Positions 34,842 to 37,800 of a stretch of DNA of 64,000 bases are shown piece after piece. Position 1 is the stretch's first letter. Each line of letters starts with the position of its first letter. Source of the stretch: Onchocerca volvulus (Eukaryota > Nematoda > Chromadorea > Rhabditida > Onchocercidae); the NCBI GenBank assembly GCA_000499405.2, contig HG738137.1, positions 27,091,928-27,155,927 on the forward strand, read 5' to 3'. A program made the position numbers and the translations under genes. The notes beneath the pieces were generated by a model. It was not told where the DNA came from. It saw nothing but the letters and a program-made list of their open reading frames with translations, and made no database searches.

Positions 34842-37800
34842 ATGGCACGACGTCCGTTCGTTTATTGGGCACAGAATCAAAAATTACTTTTCCTAACAAT
34901 TGATTTGAAAGATTCGTCGGTTAGATTATTTCTTCCTTCTTTTATCGTACGTACAGAGTTCATTATGATTAATTTATTTTTTTAAATAATAATACATTAC
35001 GCTTGTGTCGGAGTAATATTTTTGAATTAATGACAACAACATGATTAAGACGAAACAGTTTATGCTATTAACTTTTCGAGAAATGCAGATATGTGAATCG
35101 ATTAGGTGTATGAAATATGAATTGTTTTTCCATATCATTTCAAGATATACTGATAAATTTTGATTAATATTCTTTTCCAAATTCAAATTACAATTTATAA
35201 TGTAACGGGGAATATATATGTCTGATATCTTAAAGGTTTCAATAATTATTAGAGCCTCACTATATTCCAGAGAATTTATTTCCAGAATTATTTTTAGGAC
35301 GCTGATTATACTATAGTGGGCAATTTATTTGAATTTCGTGCTACTGGAGTTGGTGCACACGGTCGATGTGAATATTCGTTTGAATTACCTTTATTTGCAG
35401 ATGTAGAGATAGAGAAGGTAACTAACTTTACAGTGAGATTTCATATTAAAATTAATGATTTCGCTATTTGTACGACTTCTTTAAATTATTATTATCTTAT
35501 GTGAATTTGAAGAAAGCACTAAATTAGCTTCAGTTTGGTAGCTAATTTCTAACAATACTCATATTTTCAGGCCGGCCAAGAAGGTGGAAGCAAATTATTG
35601 TATATTTTGAGGAAGAAAAACGACATATGGTGGCCTACTGTTCTCAAAGGTGGCGGTCGATATTCTTGGCTTCGAGTACGCAAACTTAACGTTTTATACT
35701 CTTTTATATTTGCTTAGATTAAAATAGAATTGAATACATGCAGTGGTCCTTTTTATTTATGGATTAAGGACCTTTCAGCTCCTGATCCAACAAACATCTT
35801 TACATTGTTTGGTTCAGAGTATCGCTCTGAAGCTTAGTCGTATGAAAGAGCAATGTACATCTTTGATTCCATTTTTAGAAGATGGCGATGCTAAAAGAGC
35901 ATTAATGGGTTCAAGCATGCAACACCAAGCTGTACCTTTAATGAGGTATTTTTTTAAGATCGATTTCGATCGATTCGAGGATCCAGATGGAAGTGAAACA
36001 GACGAAGATTATGAAATGATAAATATGAATGCGGTTTGTTTTTCTTCTACATTGAGAAATGTCAATAAATGAATTTATTAATTTCTCTTAATTCAGGAAC
36101 TTCAGATTTTTATTGCAGTTTAAACTATTATAGCGTACACCAGAAGCGGAGATGGATGCCATGACACAGCGCATTTTAAAAGAATGCCGCACTAGGCCAA
36201 AAACAAAAGCGGAATTTATCAATGAAGGTTGTACTGTTAATTTAAATTTGAATTTTATATCTTTGGCCATTTGGTATATCACAACTTTAAAAGCGATACG
36301 CCATTCTGTGATTAAATTTACTAATATATTAGGTATTTTAATTTATGAAATAGACATTTCATACAGTAAGATTAACAACATTGATTTAGATAATGTAAAT
36401 AGTAAAATCCGTACTATCTTTTCTACTGATAAGTTAATCGGTCGTTTGCTACCAAAAGGAGGGCGCATTCAAAGATTACACAGAATGATATAGTTTATAG
36501 TCTTTAGCGGAAAACTATTTTTTTAGATTTTTCGACGCTGTTTTTTTTATCTTTTCAGCTAAAATTTTCTGAATTTTCTTCCAGCAAAGCGGTTTGCCAA
36601 AAAATGTAGCTGCTTGCTAACTCATTACCTTTCTGCATTCAACTTATCATTATTTATACTTCACGCATACTTATTATTTATTTTGCTCTTCAAATTCTTC
36701 ACTGTTGGAAGTGGTGAGGTTGTTTCGCTGTTTATATCTATTGGCTTTTATTAATAAAGAAATGTATAGATATTAATATAGGCAAAATTAGATGTGATGT
36801 TTCTGGATGAGGATTTAGATTGAATTTTATGAAATATAATAGCAGCATAGTGTTATTCAGATAGAAGTATAAATTTCTATTATTCTCATATAATGTTTTT
36901 TATCGTCGTTGCATATTTAATCAAATTTTATGAAATTTGCTTTCAGAATATTATAATTCATTTTGGCAAAATAATGTTAACATTATAAAAATTACAACGG
37001 CTTTACAACTAATTGATATTACACATGCATTGATCGGTTTCACAAAAGGTAGTTACCAAGTCGGACTAATACAGGTTAGAAACACGCTTGCTGTTCATTG
37101 CTAAAATTCTGTTATGTATATTGCTATGAATGAAAACTTTTTATATGTTTATTGCTGATATTTTCTTGTTTATTTGATTCTTTTTGTATATTTTTGATTT
37201 CTGATAGGTTTGTGGACGCTTAGCATTCATATATATTATTGATGGCTGTCCAGATGTGCAAAATTTACCGACTACTTTTATTTTGATGATCGCCTACTTT
37301 TCGATTGAAGTTATACGGTCAATTTCTTTCCCATATAATTTGATTTGAAATCCAAGTATAAATTATGTTCAATGCAATATTTCGGTTTTTTTGATTATTT
37401 ATGCCCAAGTTATCAATGATTTTTTGAAAGTACATGTAGGGAATCCTAATTCCATTATACACATATGGTTATAAGTATAACCATGAAAGATTCTGCTTCG
37501 TAGCATTTCTCATAATTACAAGTAAATAATGGAGGTAGAATTTCTTATTTTTTTCTTACATATACTTTTTAAAGATGTTAGGGAAATGATGATTCTGTCC
37601 AAATTAATATTGATCTTTGTAATACTCTCTTCTAAATCAGTGATATTACTTGCAGTGAACTTTTCGCATCATGTTTGCTCATCTGTTTTTTGATACTGAC
37701 TGAAGAACAATTTTTTGATTTTACTGGACAAAACTTGTGCTTTTAGATATCCATACTATATGGCTAGGAATTTGAAAATTGAAATTTCGTTACTCACGTG

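Follow-up and report, generated by a model that had tools for sequence, protein, structure and literature searches.

Nuclear Wolbachia transfers (nuwts) have been catalogued twice in Onchocerca volvulus, with 531 putative nuwts in one report (PMC5310847) and 818 matches in 653 regions, at a cut-off of 1e-30, in another (PMC12693587). In the parts of these two papers that we draw on, the inserts are short, decayed, largely non-functional and mostly derived from supergroup C Wolbachia. These properties are shared by the locus described here, a mosaic that we call M1. Unlike M1, they are catalogued as fragments or regions and not as joined scraps from distant loci; the terms 'mosaic' and 'chimer' have no occurrence in either main text. 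Two Wolbachia-free filariae also carry short Wolbachia homologs, with a mean length of 159-174 bp, one of which lies beside a Pao remnant (excerpts of PMC2882956).

A close filarial case is a pair of neighbouring nuwts that stem from separate regions of the Wolbachia genome (portions of PMC3849323). As in M1, neighbouring Wolbachia pieces come from separate loci, but the pair is a single intergenic case and does not consist of tiny abutting scraps in an intron. Another parallel is found outside the filariae, in complex numts and nupts, where end joining has trapped organelle fragments at double-strand breaks. Together with mosaic numins, these resemble M1 and the second mosaic described below, M2, in combining several fragments of varied origin and orientation, and their inner junctions are blunt or show short microhomology, as do those of M2 (sections of PMC6215612). 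They differ in their source, which is an organelle; the source of M1 and M2 is a bacterial endosymbiont of an animal, and the pieces are mostly 40-150 bp. Multi-scrap inserts are not described in the available parts of PMC4299567, PMC4046930 and PMC3458923. A search of the open-licence literature by title and start of abstract found no paper on filarial multi-scrap Wolbachia inserts; supplements lay outside that search, and M1 and M2 are possibly listed there. Gene fragments captured by Helitrons are flanked by TC/CTRR termini and a 3' hairpin. A regional association with Helitrons has been reported in Onchocerca (part of PMC12693587).

The window analysed here is a stretch of 64,000 nucleotides of O. 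volvulus DNA (host C2:27091928-27155927), and the host genome searched comprises 94.7 Mb in 115 contigs. M1 sits in the host chromosome with host exons on either side; the intron that holds it belongs to a gene that an earlier note on this DNA had called HACD3. For the N-terminal exons the match is to p23-type proteins (PDB 2kmw, E 7e-10), and the downstream exons encode PTPLA (PF04387, E 2.6e-25), in agreement with that call; Pfam alone returned nothing for the N-terminal part. The exon and intron boundaries of this HACD3-like gene were read from the sequence and reading frame. The upstream exon ends TGG CTT CGA, the intron runs from GTACGC to TTTTTTTAAG, and the next exon begins ATC GAT TTC. 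Joining CGA to ATC yields a peptide that can be aligned to the terminal part of p23-type domains, and the intron has the 283 bp attributed to it earlier. Two exons of a MIF gene in the host DNA translate into a sequence identical to PDB 8vj2 (Macrophage migration inhibitory factor-1) at 94/94 residues.

The earlier note had recognised YidC and RNA polymerase beta motifs in separate frames of this one intron. Both are found, as motifs of 23 residues (YidC) and 28 residues (rpoB) in different frames, and both are matched at the DNA level. The yidC scrap is closest to genome G015, which we take to be wDi (97% identity over 66 bp, E 7e-26), and is 90% identical to wOo (genome G007); the rpoB scrap is closest to wOo itself (93% over 81 bp, E 2e-28). 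When the intron was compared with Wolbachia genomes at the DNA level, as had been proposed, at least one M1 piece was matched at E <=0.01 by 40 of the 41. The yidC match stops at 35812 and the rpoB match starts at 35858-35860, and because all but a few of the aligned genomes agree on these ends they are read as real break points. The spacing had been put at about 40 bp, which is close to the measured 47 nt. The start proposed for the insert, 35724, survives as a gapped yidC extension seen in six genomes, which begins exactly there in four of them; the firm start lies at 35744-35748. A Pfam search confirms the yidC and rpoB source genes of wOo, which the circular map places at a distance of about 457 kb (yidC at 645.8 kb, rpoB at 145 kb). 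The suggestion that the genes are non-adjacent and the insert a patchwork is thus upheld.

What fills the gap between the two scraps? Positions 35837-35861 are probably a third scrap, an antisense piece of a Wolbachia E2 gene located at 229 kb of wOo. Reversed, they give codons for MYIALSYD, from the C-terminal region of 2-oxoacid dehydrogenase E2. The source gene carries the Pfam domains 2-oxoacid_dh, lipoyl and E3-binding, and 'sucB' is our reading of its identity. The piece matches wOo at 21/23 bases, G006 and G013 at 23/25, and G014 and G008 at 26/29; the gene used as a probe had no match in G015. The 47-nt gap on its own scores 34 against wOo and 36 in four other genomes. The best score among 40 simulated 958-kb genomes was 33, which represents chance for one genome, the search itself having spanned 41. 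With up to 3 mismatches allowed, the 25-mer has no second site in the host genome, and no host gene is therefore evident as its source. A chance match carries a small but real probability for this piece.

The sucB and rpoB pieces overlap by 1-2 nt. On the yidC side 24 nt intervene, with no blunt or microhomology join seen there, and the Wolbachia searches covering those 24 nt listed no match. They contain an inverted repeat, TCAGAG-TATCG-CTCTGA, at 35814-35830. General repeat searches of 35660-36600 found no tandem repeat, and the longest direct repeat was 12 nt. A 351-bp stretch of the window has one full-length match in the host genome and one separate 63-bp yidC match.

Table. Host introns and Wolbachia-derived pieces in the window (positions are those of the window; sucB is a probable assignment)
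Feature	Position	Strand	Remarks
Host intron with M1	35676..35958	+	283 bp, phase 0, acceptor TTTTTTTAAG; predicted from sequence
M1 scrap 1, yidC	35745..35812	+ (coding sense)	possible gapped extension to 35724; DNA matches
M1 source-less stretch	35813..35836	.	24 nt
M1 scrap 2, sucB (probable)	35837..35861	- (antisense)	short DNA match; gap score against simulation
M1 scrap 3, rpoB	35860..35944	+ (coding sense)	DNA matches
Host intron with M2	36228..36584	+	357 bp; predicted from reading frame
M2 scrap 1, mnhB (Na+/H+ antiporter subunit B)	36269..36347	+	95% to wOo 163629-163708
M2 scrap 2, putative M16 peptidase	36345..36462	+	95% to wOo 395328-395458 (minus strand)
M2 scrap 3, dnaB 3' end	36462..36510	+	92% to wOo 543719-543767; 1-nt overlap with scrap 2
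Single-piece Wolbachia insert	25431..25629	-	93% to wOo 240446-240642

The scraps of M1 are 7-10% divergent from wOo, which is the Wolbachia of O. ochengi and not the resident strain. They are partial gene pieces only, and no open reading frame is maintained. At six rpoB sites (35881, 35885, 35895, 35915, 35924 and 35941) the window base occurs in 0 of 31 aligned genomes, and all six changes alter the amino acid when the codons are read by eye; this fits the neutral decay proposed earlier. A site-by-site comparison shows that the yidC scrap retains five states that wOo has lost, while the rpoB scrap shares with wOo two states that are absent from most or many of the others, at 35886 (where 27/29 others have T) and 35916 (where 17/29 have T). 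Taken together, the yidC states lost in wOo, the rpoB states shared with it and the changes private to the window suggest that an old, unconstrained copy was inserted within supergroup C on the Onchocerca side. M1 would be spliced out with its intron and presumably has no function of its own. The nearness of the splice acceptor had been given special weight, but no consequence of it is shown.

A second mosaic of three pieces, M2, lies further along the HACD3-like gene, in another of its introns, so that M1, regarded earlier as unusual for joining two genes, has a counterpart within the gene itself. The pieces of M2 come from 163.6, 395.4 and 543.7 kb of wOo. The M16 peptidase assignment has a Pfam score of 21.3, below the gathering score of 23, and the alignment of this scrap extends back to 36332. 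A base-by-base reading covered the inner junctions of M2 and some of those of M1. The M2 joins show exact microhomology, ATG (3 nt) at one and G (1 nt) at the other; in complex end-joining insertions the inner junctions are blunt or share 1-7 nt. At M1 and M2 alike, at least two fragments from non-adjacent source loci are found at one site. M2 is about 325 bp downstream of M1, so two separate mosaics lie close together.

Across window positions 6001-64000 (58 kb), wOo matches of at least 53 bits were found in at least three places; for each genome, scoring was confined to the 40 best first-look candidates, which makes such counts a lower bound. This count serves as the control for the flank searches described below. 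In 6001-26000 and 46001-64000 the one additional clear insert was the single piece at 25431-25629. G015 was searched against 26001-46000 only. It matches window positions 45837-45994 at 69% identity (G015 251988-252153, 62 bits, E 4.8e-9), a stretch for which wOo has no counterpart among the matches listed, and which may represent either a conserved gene or an old insert. Further wOo matches near 11473, 17672, 37174, 49334 and 57054 reach only 42-48 bits and are treated as unproven.

How common are such mosaics in the host genome? The probes were two wOo stretches of 3 kb each, one around rpoB and one around yidC, which gave 10 and 15 host-genome matches, respectively, the window being counted in both; other host inserts reach 97-100% identity to wOo. 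Ten inserts were sampled, and flanks of 150 nt (one of 104 nt), reaching about 10 nt into the insert, were searched against wOo and G015, again with the best 40 first-look candidates scored per genome. Five came from the rpoB region (C2:6323609, C2:14460471, C24:31873, C4:9389675 and C5:7660272) and five from the yidC region (C5:12495681, or L002; C5:84933 with C5:85091; C4:7202492; C4:6778742; C5:6516130). Left out were the window and C3:21499819, C5:7734851 and C2:19863735 from the rpoB region, where C2:15651502, one flank of which resembles the C24 locus, was also dropped. From the yidC region the window, C4:4683858, C4:4683810, C4:4671407, C4:4671357, C7:304788, C5:16032905, C5:4304038 and C4:2438744 were left out.

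Eight of the ten sampled inserts are mosaic, with non-collinear wOo scraps of at least 53 bits in their flanks among the matches listed; counted by flank, 11 of 20 carry such scraps among those matches. L002 entered the sample through its match to the window, and without it the result is 7/9. The proportion is an estimate, since the sample is small and only two source regions contributed to it. The flank scraps come from both wOo strands and from loci at least about 27 kb away, and by coordinates they mostly abut or sit within about 10 nt. At C4:6778742, for example, pieces from 272.6(-), 352.8(+), 645.5(+), 580.8(+) and 251.2(+) kb of wOo form a row, and C4:7202492 has pieces from 646.9(-), 895.2(-), 208.9(+) and 887.6(+) kb. 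The exceptions are C4:9389675, which shows collinear continuation only, and C2:14460471, whose sole flank match among those listed has 45 bits. The two-gene mosaic in the window is therefore not the rarity that the earlier note took it for.

Some source stretches recur. L002 (C5:12495681-12496073) is a mosaic with pieces from wOo 611185 and 252713, and the 3' break of its yidC piece lies within 3 bp of the yidC break in the window. A common origin of the two yidC pieces was rejected, as 7 of 63 bases differ and the neighbours in L002 are different. Three other inserts (C4:4671357-4671695, C4:4683810-4684139 and C7:304788-305079) cover nearly the same stretch of the wOo yidC 3' end and are perhaps duplicated nuclear copies. 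A 3.4-kb stretch at wOo 251-255 kb supplies scraps (251196, 252713 and 254460) to three host mosaics, and is perhaps a source hot spot.

The source genes, the order and orientation of the pieces, the abutment of most of them and their recurrence elsewhere can be read directly, with sucB as a probable member. How did they come together? It is likely that M1 is a nuclear Wolbachia transfer of the complex, multi-fragment kind, captured by end joining in the intron of the HACD3-like gene and subject to neutral decay since. Supergroup C Wolbachia DNA would have been degraded into short pieces, among them yidC, rpoB and, probably, a reversed sucB; these would have been joined end to end and captured in the intron as filler while the host repaired a double-strand break by end joining, and the joined scraps would then have decayed without selection. 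The same process would have given rise to M2 and to most of the other sampled inserts. The case for end joining rests on short pieces of both strands, drawn from the whole chromosome with scarcely any host DNA between them, as in complex numts and nupts. We infer that each mosaic arose in one event.

A different route would run through RNA: reverse transcription of Wolbachia transcripts, with template switching, would yield a chimeric cDNA that is then inserted. Such a route would leave every piece in coding sense, as is seen for the five well-matched scraps of M1 and M2, which share one strand (5/5), and RNA-mediated transfer has been suggested for Brugia (Ioannidis et al. 2013, in part of PMC3849323). 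However, the probable sucB piece is antisense, and C5:84933 has opposed yidC pieces, two on the minus strand and one inverted (46 bits; 42 bits in G015); on both grounds the DNA route is favoured, although the matter is not settled, and we regard the RNA route as unlikely. Scraps elsewhere also match both wOo strands, their coding strand being unassigned. A codon model trained on Wolbachia genes, with an accuracy of 57-72% on pieces of 35-150 bp, was left unused for that assignment. It is quite improbable that one long Wolbachia insert was later broken up by nuclear deletions and rearrangement. Collinear segments with internal deletions do exist, for example at C4:4683810-4684139 and in part of C5:84933-85191, but they contrast with the side-by-side scraps, mostly of 40-150 bp, which have nearly no host DNA between them although they derive from both strands and from loci separated by tens to hundreds of kb. 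Source distances within mosaics show no clear departure from random expectation, with 5 of 32 pairs closer than 40 kb (P = 0.12).

An assembly artefact or contamination with DNA of the live symbiont has very little probability. Resident-symbiont DNA should not be 7-10% divergent from wOo when wOv and wOo are 99.51% identical (as given in part of PMC5310847). The exon frames next to M1 are open, the full 351-bp stretch occurs once in the host genome, and mosaics recur at many sites. That the protein motifs arose by chance in AT-rich intron DNA has a probability close to nil. The pieces are short, and wOo matches of 42-48 bits do occur elsewhere in the window, but for yidC and rpoB chance is refuted by the DNA-level E values and by identical match ends in dozens of genomes.

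Capture by end joining thus remains our preferred reading, and M1 is an ordinary, probably neutral example of it. It belongs to an established type of nuclear transfer, and the interest lies in the apparent prevalence of patchworks. On balance, we think that Wolbachia DNA of the Onchocerca lineage enters the nucleus mainly as a shredded pool of pieces, mostly 40-150 bp, several of which are ligated at each break. If so, most nuclear Wolbachia DNA would be a patchwork of thousands of scraps; the 25 host matches of the two 3-kb probes, scaled to the whole wOo chromosome, correspond roughly to 3,900. Catalogues that require E <1e-30 would then miss many scraps and all joins. Twelve of the 25 probe matches pass E 1e-30, in a search program different from that of the catalogues. 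About two thirds of both introns of the HACD3-like gene would be of bacterial origin. Transfers from endosymbionts to animal nuclei are usually counted per fragment. If most Onchocerca fragments prove to be multi-scrap, their junctions would document DNA degradation and repair, transfer counts and ages would need to be recalculated per event and not per fragment, and the question of a DNA or an RNA route in filariae could be tested through the orientation of the scraps.
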